Below are positions 2,507 through 38,743 of a stretch of 38,743 nt of DNA, piece after piece; position 1 is the first letter of the stretch, and each line of letters starts with the position of its first letter. Made by a program: the position numbers and the translations under genes. The stretch covers positions 1 through 38,743 of IMG/VR virus record IMGVR_UViG_3300022918_000024. One strand, 5' to 3'. The notes under the pieces were generated by a model. It was not told where the DNA came from, ran no database searches, and saw nothing but the letters and a program-made list of their open reading frames with translations. Source of the DNA: a virus.

Positions 2507-3397
2507 TTATTTTCCTTGTTTCAAGTAAGTTTTTTTAATGTGGGTAATAGCACCCGCGATTGCATCGGTTGACATCTCGCTCCAGTTTTCAACCTGTTTG
2601 GCGTTCAACCATTTCTCGACCTGTCCCTCTGGCAGACGAACCATGTTGAGCAGATCATTCAACTCAATCAACTGATCCTCTGTTGCCAGAACAATTGCCT
2701 CGGACTGTTTCTCAATAACGGTCTTACCGTATTTATCGGCAAAATCGTTATAAGACCAGTCAAAGCTTGAACCATCTGGAAAGTCCTTTAGTCGGCTCTT
2801 GCGAACACGCGCCTTGCGGGAAGCACCAACCTTGATGATATTCAAGGCCAAGTCCAATTCGTATTCGAGCTTGTCCCATGCATCAAATGTTGAACCAATC
2901 TCGACACGCTCACCTTTGGCATTCAGACCCCATTCAGGTTTCTCATGTGCAATCAGGATGACATTCATGTCAATGTCTGACAGCCACTTCACCAGACGTC
3001 GCATGTAGGCAATGGCTGGTCGCTTATCGGCACCAAACGCATTCTTGTCACCCAAACGCTCTGCCTCGTTTGCCACAGCTGTGTTGAACAGCTTGGAAAT
3101 CGAGTCAATCACGATTGTTTTATAATCATGGTTTTCTGTTGCCAGAGCTTGAATTTGTCCAATGACGGTTTCAAAGTCCAAAGCACCATGATCTGGACCA
3201 AGATACACACCACCGGACGCAGCAAGCTTATCGGTATAGTGAGCCATAGTAGCCCCACCTTCAGTATCTATATAAAAGACACCGGGAAAATCTAAAGAAG
3301 CCCACGTCTTACCAACGCCCGGCTTGCCGTATATCAGGATCTTGGGTTTTTTTGGTTCTGCTGTTTTGGGTGCAACCGCTTTAAGCTTACTGGCCAT
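2507..3397 (-). CDS. Sak4-like AAA_24 ATPase, single-strand annealing recombinase, 296 aa
   Basis: A RecA-fold ATPase with Walker A GKPGVGKT (residues 24-31), FYIDTEGG after it, Walker B TIVIDS (94-99) and VILIAHE further on. This is the layout of phage AAA_24/Sak4 proteins, short RecA-core proteins that anneal single strands, often with the phage SSB encoded next to them. The SSB-like gene here is the next gene. I chose the ATG at 3397 because GGAGGT lies in front of it; a longer frame would start inside the upstream gene. The C-terminus from about residue 225 (DQLIELNDLLNMVRLPEGQVEKWL) is helical and may bind DNA or SSB. It probably drives phage recombination and recombination-dependent replication. 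Confidence 0.85.
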   Translation of the reverse strand: MASKLKAVAPKTAEPKKPKILIYGKPGVGKTWASLDFPGVFYIDTEGGATMAHYTDKLAASGGVYLGPDHGALDFETVIGQIQALATENHDYKTIVIDSISKLFNTAVANEAERLGDKNAFGADKRPAIAYMRRLVKWLSDIDMNVILIAHEKPEWGLNAKGERVEIGSTFDAWDKLEYELDLALNIIKVGASRKARVRKSRLKDFPDGSSFDWSYNDFADKYGKTVIEKQSEAIVLATEDQLIELNDLLNMVRLPEGQVEKWLNAKQVENWSEMSTDAIAGAITHIKKTYLKQGK

Positions 3398-7433: not shown

Positions 7434-7439
7434 TATAAT

Positions 7440-7640
7440 CAATAATGTAATATGATTATGGTTGCGCACTTCTCATTTTGTGATTTCCATATATAAGAAG
7501 GCAAAACCTTAAATAAGATTATGATTATATTAACAGATTTCATCTGCGCACTTTGCGCACTTCTCCTTTATAAGATTAGCTGCGCAAACTGCAACCCATC
7601 CCCTTACGGTGTCCCCTTGCTCAGTGGTGGGTTGCTAAAG
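7440..7640. other. Candidate replication origin with TGCGCA iterons
   Basis: About 300 bases without a gene follow the helicase. TTGCGCACTTCTC occurs twice (7462-7474 and 7553-7565), further TGCGCA boxes lie at 7545 and 7581, and AT-rich stretches with repeated ATGATTAT lie between. GCAACCCA (7591-7598) and TGGGTTGC (7628-7635) form a hairpin. Iterons, an AT-rich region and an adjacent RepA-like helicase suggest an origin. Function is inferred. Confidence 0.45.
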
Positions 7641-7682
7641 CAAACCCCTTCACTGCGCTTAGGGAGACTTAGTAAATTTTAT

Positions 7683-7712
7683 TTGACAACGAATAATAAT
7701 GATGTTTATATA
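7683..7712 (+). promoter_or_regulatory. Sigma70-type promoter for gene 7742
   Basis: TTGACA (7683-7688), 18 bases, TATATA (7707-7712), within strongly AT-rich sequence. The start would fall about 20 bases before the ribosome-binding site of the 7742 gene. No palindrome is seen in the spacer. Confidence 0.65.
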
Positions 7713-7741
7713 AATACGCTAAACAACTAATGGAGATTAAA

Positions 7742-8033: not shown

Positions 8034-8330
8034 ATGCTTATTAAGTATTATGGCCTTGATGGCTGCGTTTATCTCATCGACGGTGTAACGGATGTTATGA
8101 TCGGCAGCACTTTGTCCGATATCGAAAAATATCCCCAACAGGAAAACGTAAATCACCTGATCCTTGAAGGTGTGGTCGAATCCGGGCGATTGGCTAAGAT
8201 TGTCTCATATGCAAAAGACGGCGCTCATAAGCTTTTTGTTTATGGTCTTGCCTATATCTGCAATGATGACGGCAAAACAATTCACAAGGTCGAGATGGAA
8301 CGCCCTGGAACGTCTGTCGTGGAAGCCTGA
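8034..8330 (+). CDS. Hypothetical protein, 98 aa
   Basis: The ATG at 8034 follows CAGGAG. The product is predicted as a mixed alpha/beta soluble domain: KYYGLDGCVYLIDGVTDVMIG, a middle VNHLILEGVVESGRL and a final HKLFVYGLAYICNDD. No family recognised. It lies between a stable hairpin and the structured gene-less region, so it is the last small gene before the packaging operon. Confidence 0.65.
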   Translation: MLIKYYGLDGCVYLIDGVTDVMIGSTLSDIEKYPQQENVNHLILEGVVESGRLAKIVSYAKDGAHKLFVYGLAYICNDDGKTIHKVEMERPGTSVVEA

Positions 8331-8336
8331 TAATCC

Positions 8337-8365
8337 TTGACACGCATCGCCGACTCGGGTAGCTT
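8337..8365 (+). promoter_or_regulatory. Promoter of the structured leader / packaging operon
   Basis: TTGACA (8337-8342), exactly 17 bases, TAGCTT (8360-8365, weak match). The predicted start, about 8372, coincides with the first base pair of the long helix at 8371-8466. A second TTGACA with the same CCTTGACAC context lies at 8729-8734 but has no recognisable -10. Confidence 0.5.
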
Positions 8366-8370
8366 GGGGA

Positions 8371-8696
8371 TGTTAGGTGACAGGCTAAATGTCAGTACGC
8401 GCCAAAGCATCCATATACCGCTTGACAGGTGGATGGCCTCGACGGGAGTTCCCGATGCACCTAACACACCGCGCCAGTCCGGTATAGGCTGGTTCCCTTG
8501 TGGAAAGGGATAATTCTTATCGTAAAACAATCTTACGCGCCGCCTAGCGTCACAAGGGCAATCTTTCTTTGATTGATATGTTGTAGTTGGAAGTTTATTG
8601 CCGCATATCAATCATGGACAGGTATGTAATCGGCGCGCATCGCAAGATGTCTAGATATATGTTTCAGAGCATGGCCGCTGTTATCTGAACCTGTCC
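8371..8696 (+). ncRNA. Structured leader or non-coding RNA upstream of the packaging operon
   Basis: No credible reading frame fills 8331-8840. Successive inverted repeats are: TGTTAGGTG/CACCTAACA (8371-8379 / 8458-8466), enclosing CATCC/GGATG (8408-8412 / 8431-8435) and CGGG/CCCG (8443-8446 / 8451-8454); CCAG/CTGG (8474-8492); CCCTTGTG/CACAAGGG (8495-8558), enclosing CGTAA/TTACG; TGATTGATATG/CATATCAATCA (8570-8614); GGACAGGT/ACCTGTCC (8616-8696). A promoter points at the first helix. It matches no RNA class I can name (not tRNA, tmRNA or RNase P). It could be a free RNA or the 5' leader of the terminase operon. Confidence 0.5.
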
Positions 8697-8771
8697 AACC
8701 AACACCAACGCCGGGGAGCGGATTGCCCTTGACACCCGCCCCCAATCCATGCCACACTGATCACATCAATC

Positions 8772-8834
8772 CTCCTCGGACTTGTTCGTCCAGCCTCTAG
8801 ACGTTAAACCAGAGGCATTCCATTCACCGAGGAG
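8772..8834 (+). promoter_or_regulatory. Leader helix hiding the ribosome-binding site of the DUF3309 gene
   Basis: CTCCTCGG (8772-8779) is perfectly complementary to CCGAGGAG (8827-8834), which contains the GAGGAG Shine-Dalgarno of the next gene. A second helix, GCCTCT/AGAGGC (8793-8798 / 8811-8816), nests inside. The fold would keep ribosomes off until opened. This is the 3' end of the structured region that starts at 8371. Confidence 0.55.
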
Positions 8835-8840
8835 CTAATT

Positions 8841-8999
8841 GTGAATATCATCGCCCTTCTAATCATCCTGCTCGTCATCTCAAGCGTATTCACCTTCCCA
8901 GCTTGGCCTCATGCTGCTAATTGGGGCCCGTATCCTTTTGGTGGTCTGATCGGTCTTGTTATCGTGTTGTTATTGCTACGTGCTTTTGGTTTGATCTAA
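8841..8999 (+). CDS. DUF3309-like small membrane protein, 52 aa (GTG start)
   Basis: It starts with GTG at 8841, six bases after GAGGAG. Two hydrophobic segments (IIALLIILLVISSVF, residues 3-17, and LIGLVIVLLLLRAF, 36-49) flank a conserved short loop, PAWPHAANWGPYPFGG. This is the layout of DUF3309, a family of about 50-aa membrane proteins frequent in proteobacteria (PTWPHSRGWGYxPSGG type). Function unknown. Its place at the head of the terminase operon, behind a closed ribosome-binding site, is unusual. It may have been picked up from a host. Confidence 0.75.
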   Translation: MNIIALLIILLVISSVFTFPAWPHAANWGPYPFGGLIGLVIVLLLLRAFGLI

Positions 9000-9016: not shown

Positions 9017-9391
9017 ATGTCTGGGAACCCAAATCCTCCTCTTGAAAATCTGATTCCTTACCAGCCGGGGCAGTCTGGGAACCCCGCTGGACGACCTAAA
9101 GGTGCTCGCAGTAGGTCTACGGTACTTGCTGAGTATGCTGGCCTCAAAGTCAAGAAAAACGGCCTTAGCGGCGAAGAGCTAGAAGCAACTGCTGAAGAGT
9201 TTGCTATCATGGCTCTGATTAAGAAAGCTTGGGAAGGCGATGTCGCTGCTATTAAGGAAATTCAAGACACCCTCTATGGCAAAATCACAGACAAAACAGA
9301 ACTGACTGGCGCTGAAGGTTCACCACTTGGTCTGGCCGTTAAGTTCATTAACTCAGAGCCTGAGCTTGGCAATCCAAATGACATTGCTTGA
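9017..9391 (+). CDS. terS: Terminase small subunit-like DNA-binding protein (DUF5681 type), 124 aa
   Basis: Residues 15-40 (YQPGQSGNPAGRPKGARSRS) match the DUF5681 signature PGQSGNPAGRPKG found at the start of many phage small-terminase or terminase-associated proteins. A helical part follows (LSGEELEATAEEFAIMALIKKAWEGDVAAIKEIQDTLYGK). It immediately precedes the large subunit, as expected. I chose the ATG at 9017 because the longer frame overlaps the DUF3309 gene out of frame and shows no family match. The upstream ribosome-binding site is poor (ACAAAG). Confidence 0.78.
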   Translation: MSGNPNPPLENLIPYQPGQSGNPAGRPKGARSRSTVLAEYAGLKVKKNGLSGEELEATAEEFAIMALIKKAWEGDVAAIKEIQDTLYGKITDKTELTGAEGSPLGLAVKFINSEPELGNPNDIA

Positions 9392-9530
9392 GACCGTCAC
9401 CGAAATCCTGCAACGCCCTGTTCCAACATGGACAGAAGCTGACTACAAATGGCTTGATGAAGGCAACCGCAAGATTGGCCGTGACCAAATGAAAGACCTT
9501 ATGGCGAAAGTCGCCCCACAGGATCAATGA
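9378..9530 (+). CDS. Small protein between the terminase subunits, 50 aa
   Basis: The ATG at 9378 overlaps the end of the small-subunit gene, and the TGA overlaps the ATG of the large subunit (ATGA). The protein (MTLLETVTEILQRPVPTWTEADYKWLDEGNRKIGRDQ) is helical and soluble. Proteins of this size and WTEADYKWLDEG type occur in the same place in other phages, but no function is known to me. The tight overlap on both sides suggests it is translated together with the terminase. Confidence 0.65.
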   Translation: MTLLETVTEILQRPVPTWTEADYKWLDEGNRKIGRDQMKDLMAKVAPQDQ

Positions 9531-10807
9531 CATCCGAAATTATCATCCCCTCAGCTTTCAAAGAGCTATTCCAGCCTAAACGATACAAAGCATATTACGG
9601 TGGCCGTGGAAGCAGTAAGAGCCACTCAGTCGCCCGCGCTTTGCTCATCCTTGGCGCTCAAAGCAAGAAGCGCATTGTCTGCGCCCGTGAGATACAGAAA
9701 TCAATCAAGGACTCAGTTCACAAGCTTCTATCCGACATTATCCGAGAAAACGACACGTTCAAGGCTTTCTATCAGATCCTTGAGACCGAGATACGCGGCC
9801 TAAATGGTACAGAGATTATCTTCCGTGGTCTTAAGCATAACACACGCGATCTTAAATCACTTGAAGGATGTGATTATTGCTGGATTGAGGAAGCCGAGAG
9901 CGTATCGAATAACTCTTATGAAATCCTAATCCCCACAATCCGTAAGCCAAACTCTGAGATTTGGGCAACCTTCAACGTCAAGAATGTGACAGACCCAACC
10001 TATCGCCGCTTCATTACACAAGCCGACGAACATGTTTTTCACAAGAAAGTCTCATGGCGTGACAATCCATTTTTCCCTGATGTTCTGCGCCTTGAGATGG
10101 AAAAGCTTAAGAAGGATGACCATGAGGCTTATCTCCACATCTGGGAAGGTGAGCCAGACACACGCCGATCCGGCGCTGTATTTGCTAAGCAGATAGCTAA
10201 AGCCCGTGAGGAAGACCGCATTACCTTCGTGCCATACGATCCATCCTGTGAAGTCTTCACGGCTTGGGATTTAGGCTTTGGTGATGCAACGGCTATCTGG
10301 TGGTTGCAGTTTGTTGGCCGTGAGTTGCGTTGGCTCAAGTATTATGAGAATAGTGGCGAACAGCTTGATCACTATGCCAAGATCATCAAGGCTGAGAGTT
10401 ATAATTACATCCGAAAAGGTAATTTCCTGCCGCATGATGGTGGTCATGGTAACATTCGTGGCGATAGTGTAACCAAGCAACTTACATCACTTGGTGTTGA
10501 TAACACTGTTCTGACACGTGAGACAGATATTAATCCCGGCATTGAGCTGTTGCGCCAAACAATTGCATATTCAGTATTTGATGAGAAGAAATGCGCTGAT
10601 GGTATCCATGCCTTGACGCAATACGCTTACGAATGGGATGAGGATCGCGGCATATTCAAGAGCAAGCCTCGCCATGACTGGACTTCGCATGGTAGTTCTG
10701 CCGCCCGGTATGCTGCCATTGCTGCTGGTCAGGTGAAGGCTGGTCTCGGCAAGAAACCTATAACCCGAGAACCAGGTTCCTCCGCTGCTGGAATGGGTGC
10801 GTATTAA
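9527..10807 (+). CDS. terL: Terminase large subunit (ATPase-nuclease), 426 aa
   Basis: The motor that cuts and packages phage DNA into the procapsid through the portal. Walker A GGRGSSKS is at residues 25-32 and Walker B YCWIEE at 117-122, with the catalytic glutamate. The RNase H-like nuclease starts near 245 with FTAWDLGFGDATA, the first acidic site, and DGGHGNIRGDS follows. Length and motif order fit the Terminase_3/PBSX-type large subunits. It is directly followed by the P22-type portal gene behind its own promoter. Full length, no gaps seen. Confidence 0.95.
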   Translation: MTSEIIIPSAFKELFQPKRYKAYYGGRGSSKSHSVARALLILGAQSKKRIVCAREIQKSIKDSVHKLLSDIIRENDTFKAFYQILETEIRGLNGTEIIFRGLKHNTRDLKSLEGCDYCWIEEAESVSNNSYEILIPTIRKPNSEIWATFNVKNVTDPTYRRFITQADEHVFHKKVSWRDNPFFPDVLRLEMEKLKKDDHEAYLHIWEGEPDTRRSGAVFAKQIAKAREEDRITFVPYDPSCEVFTAWDLGFGDATAIWWLQFVGRELRWLKYYENSGEQLDHYAKIIKAESYNYIRKGNFLPHDGGHGNIRGDSVTKQLTSLGVDNTVLTRETDINPGIELLRQTIAYSVFDEKKCADGIHALTQYAYEWDEDRGIFKSKPRHDWTSHGSSAARYAAIAAGQVKAGLGKKPITREPGSSAAGMGAY

Positions 10808-10860: not shown

Positions 10861-13218
10861 ATGGCCAGCCGCAAACCTGTAAACAATTCGGATGATCCCG
10901 TCATCCAACGTATGCTTGACAATTATCAGCTCTCCGCCGATGCATTCTCCGACGATAGAAGCCGTGGCCGCATTGCCCTCAAGTTCCGCCGTGGTGGTGC
11001 CGATCAATGGGATGCTGGCATGTATCGCCTCCGCAATGAAGGCAACCGCCCCACAGAGTCCTATAATCAAATCCCGCAGTTCCTTCATCAGGTCACCAAT
11101 GACCAGCGCATGAATATGCCGCAGACCCGCTTCATTGCTGGCAATGATGGCAGTGAGGAAGTCGCTGAAGCCTATGAAGACTATATCCGCAATGTGCAGG
11201 CTTCTTCTGAAGCTGAAGTTGCCTATGACGCGGCATGTGACAATCAGGTTACAATTGGCTGGGGTTACTGGCGTTATGTGACCGAATATGAGAGTGACAA
11301 CTCTTTCGACCAGAATATTGCCTTGCGCTGGTGTCCCAATGTCTTCAACATTTACGACGATCCTAATTGCGTACAACAGGATTTTCTTGATCGCCGCTTC
11401 CTTCTGGAGTGCTATGATCTGCCGTTGATCCAGTTTAATAAGGAAAATGACCGCCAGTATGATGATGGCGACACCAAGATGATTGGTGATAAGGCTCCTG
11501 ATTGGGCAACCAAAGACACCGTTCGCGTTGTTGAATATTGGGAACGCACCGACAAGATAGAGAAGCTTTATCGTGTCAATGGCAAGACAACCAAAGACAA
11601 GCCAAAGGGTGAGATTGACCCTTCTGATGTTCGTGATGTGGTTGTCCCCAAGATTACATGGTATAAATGCACAGCAACCGAAGTATTGGAAACCCGTGAA
11701 TGGCCGGGTAAATATATCCCTTATGTCCGTATTTCTGGTGAAATGCTGATCATCGACGGCAAGACCTATTACAGCGGTATGGTTGAAGGCATGATGTCAG
11801 CCCAACGCCAATATAACCATTGGTCGAATACCGCAACAGAGATTATGGGCATGGTGCCTCTTGCTCCTTACATCATGGATCCGCGCCAGATCGAGGGCTA
11901 TGAGAAGTTCTGGGACGCAGCCAACGTCAAGAAATATCCTTACCTCCCGGCTCTGGCAACGGTTGATGGTCTTCCCGGCACTGTATTGCCAATGCCACAG
12001 CGTAACTCGGCTTCTGCTGATATTTCAGGTGCCTTAGCTCTTGTTCAACAGGCACAGAACAATTTCTATACAACATCCGGTATTTTTCCCGCATCATTAG
12101 GCCAGCAGGGTAATGAGTCTTCTGGTAAGGCTATCAATGCGCGTAAGGTTGAAGGCGATGTTTCAACATTCCACTACACAGACAATTTAGCGCGTGGTCA
12201 GCGTGCTGGTGGGCGTATTTGTGCTGACCTGATCCCCAAGATCCTTGATGCCAGCCGCGTTATTAAAGGGCGTAAGGAAGATGGAACAACGCGTGAAATT
12301 AAAGTAAACCAGAAATTCAAGGACAAGAAGACAGGCGAGATGAAAGAACTTGACCTGACTGTTGGTACGTATGATGTTATGGTGACAACTGGACCAAGCT
12401 TCACAACACGCCGTCAGGAATCAGCGGATGCCATGCTGACACTGGCCAGCCAGACCAACTTGATGGAAATTGCTCCTGACCTGTTCTATCGCGCTCAAGA
12501 TTGGCCGGGTGCAGACAAGATTGCAGACCGCTATAAGGCTGCATTACCTGTTGCATTGACAGAAGAATCGGATGAAGAACCCATCCCGCCACAAGTCAAA
12601 AACCAACTTGCCCAACAAGAGAAGGCTATCCAGCAATTAACAGCTGGTATTCAGCAATTAGAGCAGCAGTTGGAAAGTAAGCAAGCTGATATTGCTAAAG
12701 CACAAGCCGATATTGATCTGAAGCGTCAAGAAATGGTGTTAAATGATCAACAAGATGCACGTCAAAAAGCTCTTGATATGCAAAAAATACAAGCACAGAG
12801 AGAACAGAGCGCTCTTGAACTTCTAAAATTGGAATTAACTTCCGTTGAAGGCGCTACACCAAAAGAGAGAAGTGCAGAGCCTGAGACAATTGAGCATGAA
12901 GCTGATGACGAGAATGTATTGCTGGCTAAAGTCAATCAGATCCGCCAGAAACGTGAGCAAGATGCGTTAAATCAGCAAGCTATGCAAGAAATGGCTATGC
13001 AAGAGCAAGCTATTCAGGTTCAAACAGCTGAAATGGAAATGCAGAACGAGCAAAACAAGATGCTTATTGCTCAAACAAACTTACAGAAGCTTGATGAGAT
13101 CCATACTGGCTTAATGATGCTGACAAAAGCTATTACTGCAGATAGGAAAGTTTTACGTGATCCAATCACTGGCATGACAACGGGAGTTGTGACGGTTGAT
13201 ACCGTAGGCAGCGCTTAA
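10861..13218 (+). CDS. Portal protein, P22 gp1-like, 785 aa
   Basis: Forms the dodecameric ring at one head vertex through which DNA enters and leaves. The N-terminal 550 residues match the P22-type portal: FRRGGADQWDAGMYRLRN, QIPQFLHQVTNDQRMNMP, GWGYWRYVTEY and LRWCPNVFNIYDDP in order. From about 570 to 770 follows a long Q/E/K-rich helical region (QQEKAIQQLTAGIQQLEQQ...), which fits the alpha-helical barrel that P22 portals extend into the capsid. It is slightly longer than P22 gp1 (725 aa). GGAG stands before the ATG. It ends in TAATG overlap with the fibre-like gene. Confidence 0.93.
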   Translation: MASRKPVNNSDDPVIQRMLDNYQLSADAFSDDRSRGRIALKFRRGGADQWDAGMYRLRNEGNRPTESYNQIPQFLHQVTNDQRMNMPQTRFIAGNDGSEEVAEAYEDYIRNVQASSEAEVAYDAACDNQVTIGWGYWRYVTEYESDNSFDQNIALRWCPNVFNIYDDPNCVQQDFLDRRFLLECYDLPLIQFNKENDRQYDDGDTKMIGDKAPDWATKDTVRVVEYWERTDKIEKLYRVNGKTTKDKPKGEIDPSDVRDVVVPKITWYKCTATEVLETREWPGKYIPYVRISGEMLIIDGKTYYSGMVEGMMSAQRQYNHWSNTATEIMGMVPLAPYIMDPRQIEGYEKFWDAANVKKYPYLPALATVDGLPGTVLPMPQRNSASADISGALALVQQAQNNFYTTSGIFPASLGQQGNESSGKAINARKVEGDVSTFHYTDNLARGQRAGGRICADLIPKILDASRVIKGRKEDGTTREIKVNQKFKDKKTGEMKELDLTVGTYDVMVTTGPSFTTRRQESADAMLTLASQTNLMEIAPDLFYRAQDWPGADKIADRYKAALPVALTEESDEEPIPPQVKNQLAQQEKAIQQLTAGIQQLEQQLESKQADIAKAQADIDLKRQEMVLNDQQDARQKALDMQKIQAQREQSALELLKLELTSVEGATPKERSAEPETIEHEADDENVLLAKVNQIRQKREQDALNQQAMQEMAMQEQAIQVQTAEMEMQNEQNKMLIAQTNLQKLDEIHTGLMMLTKAITADRKVLRDPITGMTTGVVTVDTVGSA

Positions 13219-15868: not shown

Positions 15869-16272
15869 TGGCCCAAACCCGCACCCCAAAAGCACAGCTA
15901 GACACAACGCTTATTGATACATCAACGGCGCAAACGCTTACCACAAAGCGATTAAACCCGCGCATTAGCACCACGGCGTCAAGTTCAACACCAACGCCTA
16001 ACGCTGATACGGATGATATGTATACAGTTACAGCTTTGGCCGCTAATGCAACCTTTGGTGCGCCGACTGGTACGCCTGTTAATGGTCAGGCTATGATTAT
16101 ACGTGTCAAGGATAATGGGACAGCCAGAACGCTGGCTTTCAATGCGATCTATCGTGCGATTAGTGTTACCTTGCCGACTACGACTGTTATCAGCAAGACG
16201 ATCTATCTTGGCATGATTTACAACTCGAATGACACAAAATGGGATATTACTGGCTACAGTTTGGAGGCTTGA
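15868..16272 (+). CDS. Small beta-rich head/fibre-associated protein, 134 aa
   Basis: TAATG overlap with the previous gene. After a polar N-terminus, PNADTDDMYTVTALAANATFG leads into GTPVNGQAMIIRVKDNGTARTLAF and TVISKTIYLGMIYNSNDTKWDITGYS. This module is common in phage fibre and decoration proteins and parallels the GQ...KDG...W pattern in the neighbouring genes. Probably surface-exposed on the virion, possibly binding host or mucosal glycans. That is inference. Confidence 0.68.
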   Translation: MAQTRTPKAQLDTTLIDTSTAQTLTTKRLNPRISTTASSSTPTPNADTDDMYTVTALAANATFGAPTGTPVNGQAMIIRVKDNGTARTLAFNAIYRAISVTLPTTTVISKTIYLGMIYNSNDTKWDITGYSLEA

Positions 16273-16764
16273 GTGAGTTATTACCGCTTTCCCGGATTGT
16301 TGTTTAACAAGCCTGCTTCCAGTGGTGGTATTGGGATTGGATTATTTGAAGGTTTTGAAGTGTTCGCTGGTGGTGTTCCGACCACTCAGGCTTGGACACC
16401 AACTGGTTTCCCGGTTTTAACACAATCGACTTCTAATGTTACACAAGGCACATACAGCATGTCGTTTGATGCTGGTTTTAATGGGGTAAACATTAGAAAT
16501 ACAAACTTTCTTAATTTTTCTGCCATTACAAACATTCTTATGGATGTAAAACCATCTGGAGTATTTAATACAGCTATCACTTTATCTATTACAGATGGAA
16601 CAATAACAAATTCCGTAACAACAACCATATCAAGCGGAACTGCTACAACATTGACCTTGACACCTACAACTGTCAATAAAGCAGCTGCTAAAATAGCCAT
16701 TACATCTTATGACCCCGATGACAATACGCAAACATTTTACTGCGACAATCTACGTTGCACTTAA
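16273..16764 (+). CDS. Beta-sandwich virion protein, 163 aa (GTG start)
   Basis: The GTG at 16273 lies directly after the upstream TGA, with TTGGAGG as ribosome-binding site. The sequence from about residue 28 to 163 (FEGFEVFAGGV ... YSMSFDAGFNGVN ... AKIAITSYDPDDNTQTFYCDNLRCT) looks like a jelly-roll carbohydrate-binding-like domain: GFEVF start, a central SMSFD and a YCDNLR end. The fourth member of the appendage cluster. Ligand unknown. Confidence 0.62.
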   Translation: MSYYRFPGLLFNKPASSGGIGIGLFEGFEVFAGGVPTTQAWTPTGFPVLTQSTSNVTQGTYSMSFDAGFNGVNIRNTNFLNFSAITNILMDVKPSGVFNTAITLSITDGTITNSVTTTISSGTATTLTLTPTTVNKAAAKIAITSYDPDDNTQTFYCDNLRCT

Positions 16765-16785
16765 CAATAATCCAAGGAGTAAGTG

Positions 16786-17025
16786 ATGACTATCAAAGCC
16801 GAACGTATTGAATCTGAGTCCAGCACAGATGTTTACAAGCTGTTTGTCCCTCAATCTGCTGAAAAGATGGATGGCACCAAGGTTGAGATTAGCGTGTGCG
16901 AAACAGTTGATGTTAAAATGCTTGAGCTGCAACGTATGTATTTCATGGCTACTATTGAACGCGCACAGGAGGATCTGGAACAGGTTAACAAGAAACTCGC
17001 TGCCATTGAGGCTCTTGAGGGATAA
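16786..17025 (+). CDS. Hypothetical protein, 79 aa, coiled coil at C-terminus
   Basis: I chose ATG 16786 because AAGGAG is 6 bases upstream, rather than the GTG one codon earlier. A short beta-rich N-terminal half (YKLFVPQSAEKMDGTKVEISVCETVD) is followed by a helix (MLELQRMYFMATIERAQEDLEQVNKKLAAIEAL) of coiled-coil type. No family recognised. TAATG overlap with the next gene suggests coupled translation. Confidence 0.65.
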   Translation: MTIKAERIESESSTDVYKLFVPQSAEKMDGTKVEISVCETVDVKMLELQRMYFMATIERAQEDLEQVNKKLAAIEALEG

Positions 17026-17432
17026 TGTTCTCAGCTTTTCAACCCAATGCCTTTCAGTCTAGTGCATATCAGATTGTTTCGGTCTTTACGCCACCTGTGG
17101 TTGGTGGTGGGGGAAAAACAAGCCATGCCGCGTCTTATCACCTGTCCCGGCATGAATATGAAATTAAAGAATACAACCGTATTCAAGCTGAAAAGGTAGA
17201 TGCTGACAAACGTTTAGAGGCTAAAGAGGCTGAGATTACCGCATTGGAAGCGCGACGCCTGCAAATGGAAGCCTTGGCCGATATTGCGATGCAACAAGAG
17301 TTGATGGCTTTGTTCTTGGAAGCCCAGCGTTTGCAGGAAGAACGTCTCCAGTTAGAGGCGCAAATCCGGCGTTATATGATGGAGCAGGATGATATTATGG
17401 TCATTTTACTATCTTTGCCATTTTGTAGTTGA
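17025..17432 (+). CDS. Phage head-region protein with FQPNAFQ start, 135 aa
   Basis: It begins MFSAFQPNAFQSSAYQI, a motif found at the start of many phage proteins of unknown function near head genes. A glycine stretch follows, then a long charged helix from about residue 45 to 125 (NRIQAEKVDADKRLEAKEAEITALEARR...) predicted as coiled coil. It is followed by the second palindrome promoter. Function unknown, perhaps a head-assembly helper. Confidence 0.65.
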   Translation: MFSAFQPNAFQSSAYQIVSVFTPPVVGGGGKTSHAASYHLSRHEYEIKEYNRIQAEKVDADKRLEAKEAEITALEARRLQMEALADIAMQQELMALFLEAQRLQEERLQLEAQIRRYMMEQDDIMVILLSLPFCS

Positions 17433-17489: not shown

Positions 17490-18356
17490 ATGACATTACC
17501 AGAACAATCCGGCGATTATTTTGCCGATGTATCTGCAAATTATACCCCGCCTGCCGATCCGGTGGAGACAGTTGAGGAAAAGCCTCCTGTCATTGAACCA
17601 GAAACGCAAGCACCGCCCGAAGGTGAAGCTGAAAAGCCCAAACCGGAGGATGATGGCAGTGACAAGGAAAAGCGTCCTGGTAGACGTGAACGTCAGATTG
17701 AACGAGAACGGCAAGAAAATCAGCGTTTACGCGCTGAATTAGATGCCCTCAGAAGTCAAGCTCCACCTTCACTAGATAAATCCAATACAGACACTGGTCC
17801 TAAAATAGAAGACTTTGCTGATGCTTTAGAATATGCAGAAGCCCGTGCTGAATGGAAAATGGAGCAAAAGCTCAAAGCCCGTGATGAAGCTCAGGTTCAA
17901 GCAATTCAACAAGCCAAACTTCAAGAATTAGTTGCCGATCATGAAGATCGTGAAATAGAATATGCGGAAACGGTTCCTGACTATGAAGAAAAGGTTACGT
18001 CCTTACTTAGAACTGGTCATGTAACACCTGAAATCCAAGTAGCTGTTTTACACTCTGAAATGAGTCCACAGATTGCCTATCATTTAGCTAATAACTATCA
18101 AAAAGCTGTTGAATTGGGCGTTGTTGGACAAAGCGATCTGGCTCAATTGCAAGCTTTGCAATCGAATCCACCCGCTTTCAAAATGGCAATTAAACAAATT
18201 GAAGCTTTCATCAAGTCAAACCCTATTGACACTGCGGTCAAGACGACAAAGGCCGCACCTCCTATTAATCCTGTAAAATCAACATCTGGCGGGTCTACAA
18301 AGGACCTTTCCACAATGAGTTTGCGGGAGCTTGATAAGGTGTGGAAACCCCTCTAA
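17490..18356 (+). CDS. Scaffolding-like protein, 288 aa
   Basis: It lies directly before the coat gene, as phage scaffolds do, and has the right make-up: an acidic, proline-rich, disordered N-terminus (residues 15-60), then a basic/charged coiled coil (GRRERQIERERQENQRLRAELDALR), more helix (FADALEYAEARAEWKMEQKLKARDEAQ) and a C-terminal DLSTMSLRELDKVWK helix-turn-helix, probably the coat-binding end. ATG at 17490, AAAGG upstream. It should guide coat assembly and leave the procapsid during packaging. The assignment rests on position and composition. Confidence 0.75.
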   Translation: MTLPEQSGDYFADVSANYTPPADPVETVEEKPPVIEPETQAPPEGEAEKPKPEDDGSDKEKRPGRRERQIERERQENQRLRAELDALRSQAPPSLDKSNTDTGPKIEDFADALEYAEARAEWKMEQKLKARDEAQVQAIQQAKLQELVADHEDREIEYAETVPDYEEKVTSLLRTGHVTPEIQVAVLHSEMSPQIAYHLANNYQKAVELGVVGQSDLAQLQALQSNPPAFKMAIKQIEAFIKSNPIDTAVKTTKAAPPINPVKSTSGGSTKDLSTMSLRELDKVWKPL

Positions 18357-18398
18357 ACGCCGCATCCCAAGACCTGTTTGCGGCGTTCCACAAACAGG
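18356..18398 (+). promoter_or_regulatory. Pseudoknot-like leader covering the coat-gene ribosome-binding site
   Basis: AACGCCG (18356-18362) pairs with CGGCGTT (18381-18387). CCTGTTTG (18373-18380) pairs with CAAACAGG (18391-18398). The arms interleave as in an H-type pseudoknot, although the 3-base last loop is tight, so they may instead be alternative hairpins. The second helix includes the GG of the GGAG Shine-Dalgarno (18397-18400). This could control coat synthesis. Confidence 0.5.
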
Positions 18399-18406
18399 AG
18401 ACTTAA

Positions 18407-20104: not shown

Positions 20105-20419
20105 ATGTCAAAGAAAAATGATGAAAAAGAAGAGGTGAAGTTCGATGAAAATCGTCCGACACTCGAAACCAATGTTGCCACCAATGACGCTGTTCTGGCC
20201 CACAACTGGCAACCAAACAGCCCAGCTGTTGATCTGCGTTATTCAGGTGCTGAAAATGCAGTGAACACCGTTGCTGTTGCCGCTGCTTTGGAAGAAGTAA
20301 CTGAAGAAAAGAAAATAGCCAAGACCGTGAGCGAAGCTGAAATGGATCGCCGTAGCAAACTGGATGTATCCCATCCTGATTACCTGAATCCATCTCTTGG
20401 TCACGTAAAGGTTAAATAA
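20105..20419 (+). CDS. Hypothetical protein, 104 aa
   Basis: The ATG at 20105 is behind TTGGAG. The product is highly charged, starting MSKKNDEKEEVKFDENRP; it holds VATNDAVLAHNWQPNSPAVDLRYSG and ends DVSHPDYLNPSLGHVKVK. It is predicted mostly disordered with one helix (AVNTVAVAAALEEVTEEKK). Such short acidic proteins between coat and tail-accessory genes may be minor head parts. No family recognised. TAATG overlap with the next gene. Confidence 0.62.
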   Translation: MSKKNDEKEEVKFDENRPTLETNVATNDAVLAHNWQPNSPAVDLRYSGAENAVNTVAVAAALEEVTEEKKIAKTVSEAEMDRRSKLDVSHPDYLNPSLGHVKVK

Positions 20420-21213
20420 TGGCTGATACAGCACTCACAATTATCACGGACGCTCTCCTTGATCTTGGAGTGCTGGCAGAAGACGAAACCCCCTCTGCAT
20501 CACAAGTGCAGGGGGGATTGCGTAAACTGAATAACATGATTGATAGCTGGAATATCAGCAATCTCATGGTTTATGGCGCGACACCTATTACGCTGCCGTT
20601 GGTTGCCAATCAGGGTTCCTATACAATCGGACTTGGTGGCGATCTCAATATTCCACGTCCTGCTAACATTACTGCGGCTTTTATCCGTGATGTTACACAG
20701 GCCGGAAATAGCAGACAGGACATTCCTGTTTATATGTTCAACAATGAAGAATGGCAGAATGTTGCTTTTAAAGGGCAAACAGGGACATATCCTTATCAGG
20801 GTATTTGGGTTAATGAAACCTCTCCCTTGCTGACTGTTCATGTTACACCAATTCCCACAGGGTCTATTTATCAGTTGGTGTTGTGGGTTTCGGATATGAT
20901 TTCAAACCTGACCCAAAATGATGTTATTACCTTGGCACCGGGCTACAAACGGGCTTTGACTGCCAATCTTGCTGTTGAATGGGCTGGGTCATTTCAAGTA
21001 GAGGTTCCGGCTTCCGTTGCGGTTATTGCATCTTCATCGAAGGCGCAATTGAAAGCTAAAAACCTGCAGATCAATGAATTGAGATTGCCATGGGTTACAG
21101 GTGGCTATGGCTATTATGGTGCTGCATATCCCGGAGGTGGCGGTGTTGCTGTTGGACCCGGTGGGGATAATTTCTATTTTGTTGATAATGACGATTTTAT
21201 GTTTGTTGGATAG
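20419..21213 (+). CDS. Tail accessory factor, P22 gp4-like, 264 aa
   Basis: The start (MADTALTIITDALLDLGVLAEDETPSASQVQGGLRKLNNMIDSW) is the typical N-terminus of the P22 gp4-type head-completion family, which binds the portal after packaging and holds DNA in. The C-terminal third (about 190-264) has ALTANLAVEWAGSF and ends in a glycine/tyrosine-rich tail (GGYGYYGAAYPGGGGVAVGPGG). It is longer than P22 gp4 (166 aa). The gp10-like gene follows shortly, as in P22. Confidence 0.82.
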   Translation: MADTALTIITDALLDLGVLAEDETPSASQVQGGLRKLNNMIDSWNISNLMVYGATPITLPLVANQGSYTIGLGGDLNIPRPANITAAFIRDVTQAGNSRQDIPVYMFNNEEWQNVAFKGQTGTYPYQGIWVNETSPLLTVHVTPIPTGSIYQLVLWVSDMISNLTQNDVITLAPGYKRALTANLAVEWAGSFQVEVPASVAVIASSSKAQLKAKNLQINELRLPWVTGGYGYYGAAYPGGGGVAVGPGGDNFYFVDNDDFMFVG

Positions 21214-38487: not shown

Positions 38488-38743
38488 TTAAAATTCTTCC
38501 ACTGACCAACCGCCGCCGTTCTTCTTGGCATTGGCTTTGATGGCGACAAACTTGAATGGATACATATCAGCAGCAACCTTGATCTTGACACGAGCAGAAG
38601 ACTGCCAATGACCTTTTACTTCATGCAGCTCGATGGAGTTATCGGCCATCATGACACTGAAGTCTGGCGTGTATGTGGTATTATCTGCCAACTTGAATTT
38701 AAGACCTTCGAATTTGTACCTCAGGATGTCGCCATGATGCTTT
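38488..38743 (-). CDS. DUF1064 nuclease, C-terminal part (N-terminal part at 1-235)
   Basis: The part from 38594 down to 38488 completes the DUF1064 gene that starts at 235. In this copy the sequence runs on to the window end inside the terminal repeat. It carries YTPDFSVMMADNSIELHEVKGHWQSSARVKIKVAADMYPFKFVAIK, the active-site part. In this end copy the base at 38721 changes the conserved tryptophan of LWYKFEG to arginine. A frame start at the TTG of LADNT (38691) is an artefact of the cut. Confidence 0.85.
   Translation of the reverse strand, partial: KHHGDILRYKFEGLKFKLADNTTYTPDFSVMMADNSIELHEVKGHWQSSARVKIKVAADMYPFKFVAIKANAKKNGGGWSVEEF
38595..38743. repeat. Right copy of terminal direct repeat
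   Basis: Repeats bases 1-149 with one mismatch (T at 38721 against A at 127). See the left copy. Removing this copy gives a circle of 38,594 bases in which no gene is broken. Confidence 0.9.

Follow-up and report, generated by a model that had tools for sequence, protein, structure and literature searches.

A probable structured RNA and a second promoter with its own leader ahead of the packaging genes of a phage with a P22-type portal

The region ahead of the packaging operon

The window, that is, the whole stretch of 38,743 nucleotides analysed here, is a 38.7-kb virus record whose two ends carry a 149-bp direct repeat (1-149 and 38595-38743) with one mismatch. Such a repeat may mark a complete genome or real terminal redundancy, and because it is common to both ends, the window is probably a complete genome. 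The phage has a P22-type portal, no integrase was recognised among the window genes searched, and the window holds no tRNA genes. The region 8337-8840 lies between a gene for a 98-aa protein (8034-8330) and the first gene of the packaging operon, which encodes a 52-aa DUF3309 membrane protein (8841-8999, plus strand, GTG start at 8841; Pfam PF11752, E 1.5e-8). It is followed by the gene of a probable small terminase subunit (DUF5681; 9017-9391, plus strand), which was assigned by Pfam PF18932 (E 1.9e-14) and by its position ahead of the large terminase gene. The large terminase subunit (9527-10807, plus strand) was identified with PHROGs, and the portal gene (10861-13218) comes after it.

An earlier note on this DNA had described the region as lacking a credible gene in a packed genome, and indeed no credible reading frame crosses 8337-8840. 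The same note took the region for a single long leader or non-coding RNA. Its non-coding character, the promoter at its start and the series of helices were all found again, but the single unit was not, because a second conserved promoter, P2 (8729-8758), divides the region. Read from the sequence, it comprises two units: RNA1 (8371-8696), which would start from promoter P1, and a separate leader of about 75 nt behind promoter P2.

P1 (TTGACA-17-TAGCTT; 8337-8365, plus strand) stands upstream of the first helix, as had been proposed, with a predicted start near 8372. It fails a 9-of-12 consensus scan, but a counterpart occupies the same place in a related phage, L026 (TTGACC-17-TAGGGT at L026:4309-4337), and a second related phage, L034, has another (TTGCAA-16-TACAAT at L034:3135-3162). 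The helices listed earlier are all present, at 8372-8379/8458-8465, 8473-8492, 8495-8502/8551-8558, 8570-8580/8604-8614, 8616-8623/8689-8696 and 8772-8779/8827-8834. When 330 nt were folded, the pair probabilities of the 5' helix, the 8473 hairpin, the 8495 helix and the 8616 helix were 0.80-0.99 and mostly above 0.9. RNA1, on the plus strand throughout, begins with a 5' domain (8371-8466) closed by the helix 8372-8379/8458-8465 (pair probability 0.97-0.99). Motif A (8465-8493) is a bulged hairpin, GCCAGUCC-GGUAUA-GGCUGG, and is the most conserved element of RNA1. Helix P3 (CCCUUGUG/CACAAGGG; 8495-8558) has pair probabilities of 0.94-0.99, helix P4 (UGAUUGAUAUG/CAUAUCAAUCA; 8570-8614) appears in both the MFE and the centroid structure, and the terminal helix P5 (GGACAGGU/ACCUGUCC; 8616-8696) shows double changes among the phages and was examined against shuffles and controls. 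No G+C-rich hairpin followed by a U run, as in an intrinsic terminator, stands at the end of RNA1, and one weak terminator candidate lies inside it (8494-8510), overlapping P3.

P2 (TTGACA-18-CACACT, plus strand) has a collinear counterpart in L026 (TTGACA-18-CAGACT at L026:4702-4731), and P2 with its leader is 81% identical over 107 nt in that phage, a stretch that takes in some of the spacer separating the promoter hexamers. For this reason the last helix, which the earlier note had seen as the end of one leader closing over the Shine-Dalgarno sequence, does cover the ribosome site but belongs to a separate leader (8766-8840, plus strand; z -2.69, and -2.16 in L026). In this leader CUCCUCGG (8772-8779) pairs with the Shine-Dalgarno stretch (8827-8834) as an anti-Shine-Dalgarno helix, and the masking is kept in both the window and L026; in L034 the P2 leader is absent. 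Inside the helix lies CGUC-CA-GCCUCU-A-GACG-UUAAACC-AGAGGC, which could form an H-type pseudoknot (8787-8790/8800-8803 and 8793-8798/8811-8816). We offer it as a proposal only, because the sequence is conserved without covariation.

Counterparts in two related phages and the pairing they preserve

L026 was reached through the protein of the upstream gene 8034-8330 (59% identity) and is a collinear phage, with a portal 52% identical to that of the window; L034 was found by a portal search (59% identity). In L026, the stretch between the upstream gene and the packaging genes holds the P1 counterpart, motif A, a helix CCCUUAGCUG/CAGCUAAGGG in place of P3, and a helix GGAUAGA/UCUAUCC in place of the window P5 GGACAGG/CCUGUCC. 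Motif A is 97% identical over its 29 nt while its flanks have diverged, and between RNA1 and P2 lies a small open frame that has a promoter-like sequence of its own. In L034 the RNA starts at motif A immediately after the promoter and is the direct 5' leader of the operon. Its motif A, GCUAGUCC...GGUCUGGC, has diverged yet is paired, with an extra hairpin in the loop, and the RNA ends in the helix GGACUGGU/ACCAGUCC just 5' of the ribosome site of a small membrane gene. The order of promoter, motif A, P3, P5 and packaging operon is therefore common to the three phages, and only motif A, P3 and P5 are shared by all. The distance of motif A from the predicted transcription start varies among them (about 100, 35 and 0 nt). 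The 5' domain is peculiar to the window phage, being about 40 nt of other sequence in L026 and absent in L034, and P4 occurs only in the window phage, with no counterpart in L026 or L034. No intrinsic terminator ending RNA1 was seen in any of the three sequences inspected.

Automatic alignment of the three RNAs misplaced L034, so an alignment anchored on the helices served to count base pairs. In P5, double (compensatory) changes occur at pairs 4, 5 and 7 (3/8), a single change occurs at pair 8, and no pair is broken in the three phages. Motif A pairs 1 and 3 each carry a one-sided change with pairing kept, and G-U pairs are found at these two pairs and at P5 pair 8 in L026. P5 thus shows the compensatory changes expected of a conserved structured RNA, a modest result from few sequences. 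The earlier note had proposed looking for compensating changes in related phages; P5 has them in this three-member comparison, and the 5' domain and the 8570-8614 helix are not shared.

Because the L034 resemblance was spotted by eye before any test was run, the tests are post hoc. Shuffles of the 1.1-kb upstream region of L034 produced a perfect 8-bp helix with a 5' arm at most one mismatch from GGACAGGU in 1/20,000 cases, and no match of this type was found in 838 kb of other phage sequence used as a control (counting both strands). The L026 case, a 7-bp helix with up to two mismatches, is reached by 252/20,000 shuffles. A descriptor scan of 1.64 Mb, counting both strands, found motif A combined with a P5 of at least 8 bp only in the window, L026 and L034. 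Position and length support P3 for the window (reached by 10/4000 shuffles) and for L026 (1/4000), and do so weakly for L034 (292/4000); its sequence is different in L026 and L034, with pairing kept in the former and weakly kept in the latter. The comparison suggests that the shape of RNA1 is kept, and its sequence hardly, in two distantly related phages. RNA1 is non-coding, its helices are collinear in related phages behind promoter-like sequences and carry compensatory changes, and we hold it very probable that it is a real structured RNA.

Folding energy and searches for relatives

The stretch 8371-8840 folds at -149.3 kcal/mol (z -2.82), and 0/100 shuffles folded as well. It beats shuffled sequence, as the earlier note had suggested it should, but is not distinctive within its own genome: 12/84 windows of the same length (470 nt) are more extreme than z -2.82, and 21/483 windows of 160 nt exceed the region's best z of -2.9. 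Folding energy by itself is therefore weak evidence. The claim that the layout goes beyond chance holds against shuffles and not, by folding, against the genome; conservation in two other phages is what places the region above chance. The L034 RNA as a whole is no more stable than shuffles (z -0.13; -0.63). Left unconstrained, the folds of the window and L034 show motif A, P3 and P5. An extended P3 outcompetes P5 in L026, by 4.2 kcal/mol, so the RNA of that phage could be bistable or the model could be wrong there.

Several other stretches of the window are structured or shared with other phages. The 470-nt window most stable against shuffles is 20201-20670 (z -7.8), which spans the start of the gene 20419-21213, and the lowest z of the genome among 160-nt windows (-8.5) is found at the leader of the major capsid gene (18336-18400). 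There CCTGTTT can pair with AAACAGG, which adjoins the ribosome site; an overlapping CGCCGC/GCGGCG hairpin makes a pseudoknot possible. Right after a primase/helicase-like gene, 7434-7729 is strongly structured and repeat-rich (z -5.25), with three TGCGCACTT repeats and inverted copies; the same place in another phage (L028 6300-6470) has AATCACACGC repeats and a GATCCCCTGTATACAGGGATC palindrome. The stretch looks like an iteron-type replication origin, and the ORF 7521-7730 over it is doubtful. On the minus strand (1040-1130, 1290-1400 and 1960-2060), a short G+C-rich hairpin stands just 5' of the ribosome site of several leftward genes, and these hairpins are nearly identical in L028 though the genes have diverged. 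Finally, a block at 16040-17043 is 77% identical overall to L085 1-1019, with the last 250 nt nearly identical, in phages that have otherwise diverged, which points to recent recombination.

The earlier note knew of no RNA class with such a layout, and the searches agree. No family of Rfam 15 reached its gathering score in the window, and the GOLLD and ROOL models gave no match; the weak matches (E 0.1 or higher) were to microRNA or snoRNA models and were not common to the three homologues. BLAST of RNA1 and of the P2 leader against phage and plasmid records found no relative, although records very close to the window were perhaps outside the search; one match to a Phyllobacterium plasmid was due to chance. 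No similar sequence occurs at the 24 loci of large-terminase relatives (up to 76% identity), and in L003 the upstream gene adjoins the small terminase gene with no such RNA in between. When viral contigs were scanned for the patterns of motif A, the P2 leader and P5 (31 matches for P5), L026 and L034 were the only true relatives; the others are without motif A, and those inspected seem unrelated. Two motif A matches in bacterial genomes were chance matches, the portal search returned nothing from bacterial genomes, and GenBank phages with P22-type portals did not have motif A together with the P5 helix. In the isolated Rhodoferax phage P26218 (L080), a 508-nt unannotated gap (2663-3170), rich in inverted repeats and without motif A, precedes the gene upstream of the large terminase gene. 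A search of the literature gave no description of such an element. Structured phage leaders are a known kind, and as a family RNA1 appears to be new.

Possible roles of RNA1

With the promoter first, RNA1 next and the packaging operon last, the arrangement suggests a leader of the late transcript that acts in cis. Read-through and action in cis are favoured by L034, where the RNA itself forms the operon's 5' leader, and by the absence of an intrinsic terminator at the end of RNA1 in all three phages. RNA1 need not be the operon's leader, because the operons of the window and L026 have their own P2 after it. In our best explanation, RNA1 would be transcribed from P1 as a conserved, non-coding structured leader that opens the late (packaging) transcript, and it would act in cis. 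As it leaves RNA polymerase, motif A, framed by P3 and P5, would be bound either by that enzyme itself or by a factor of phage or host origin, and the binding would alter elongation or expression of the late operon. P2 would restart transcription with its own short leader, which would mask the first gene's ribosome site and tune translation of that gene. We infer transcription from the promoter-like sequences, and likewise infer the cis action and the identity of the binder. To us, a cis-acting leader of the late transcript has about an even chance of being right. Against the whole explanation stand the loss of P5 to the extended P3 in L026, the ordinary fold of the L034 RNA, the undistinctive z within the genome, the large-terminase relatives that have no such element, and a membership of three.

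Known systems offer partial parallels. The packaging RNA (pRNA) of phi29 is a structured phage RNA associated with packaging; the packaging machinery differs from the P22-type portal phage described here, Rfam gave no match, and RNA1 is linked to packaging by position only. The late leader of lambda (6S RNA/qut region) is non-coding and lies between the late promoter and the packaging genes, a placement similar by description, but no Q-like gene was recognised in the window. The HK022-type put antiterminator suppresses termination in cis via the beta' zinc-binding domain of the polymerase. HK022 put is a phage non-coding RNA near a promoter, with bulged stem-loops at variable distance from the start, and acts in cis on RNA polymerase; it is about 70 nt long, has two stems and lies in early operons (PMC9378689). 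RNA1 is likewise non-coding, with a bulged hairpin at variable distance from its predicted start, but it is about 190-330 nt long and lies before late genes, and so differs from put, by description, in size and place. A polymerase-modifying (antitermination-type) action is our most specific guess, because put likewise works at variable promoter distance, and by this analogy it may be entertained tentatively. GOLLD and ROOL are large structured non-coding phage RNAs that frequently lie close to tRNA islands, and many GOLLD RNAs are longer than 800 nt (PMC12286853). RNA1 shares their structured, non-coding nature, but its genome has no tRNA and it has no Rfam match.

RNA1 might instead be a separate small RNA of about 200-330 nt acting in trans, for example by sequestering a host protein or base-pairing to messages, with its position incidental. 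P2 frees the operon from P1 in two phages, and the sequence of motif A is far better kept than its surroundings, as for a binding site; yet RNA1 ends without a terminator, the RNA of L034 leads the operon directly, and antisense pairing to the phage's own messages is not above chance, so we consider this unlikely, though worth keeping in view. It is rather less probable that the inverted repeats are DNA sites, such as a pac or cos packaging start or a region bound by the small terminase, with the RNA fold incidental. The place directly 5' of the small-terminase operon would suit such a site, inverted repeats suit a DNA-binding protein equally, and compensatory changes are expected in DNA palindromes too. 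However, arms 45-90 nt apart are unusual for a DNA palindrome, the G-U pairs of motif A and of the L026 P5 preserve RNA and not DNA pairing, and the L034 element starts at the promoter start.

A translational or ligand sensor, that is, a riboswitch-like leader for the first membrane protein gene, would fit the position of P5 just 5' of the ribosome site in L034, the masking by the P2 leader in the window and L026, and the two competing folds of L026 within about 4 kcal/mol. In the window and L026, however, a promoter and at least 70 nt separate RNA1 from the ribosome site, and no Rfam riboswitch matches, which leaves a sensor improbable. The least probable reading in our judgement, at a small chance indeed, is a structured-looking spacer with no function whose likeness between phages comes from recombination or chance. 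The phages compared are mosaic, as the block near 16040-17043 (77% overall, up to 98%) illustrates, and similar z values are common in the window genome; but P5 carries compensatory changes between phages otherwise diverged in sequence, and these speak against such a spacer because recombination would not produce them.

In its boldest form, the cis-acting leader would represent a new family of elements that, as nascent RNA, bind the host polymerase directly and need no phage protein to control transcription of the late packaging genes in P22-portal-type phages, and we put this forward as a conjecture that is more probably wrong than right by a wide measure. Few systems are known in which structured RNAs control phage late genes, and hardly any beyond model phages. 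Motif A together with P5 is a small, concrete object that may be tested for polymerase binding, antitermination and protein binding.
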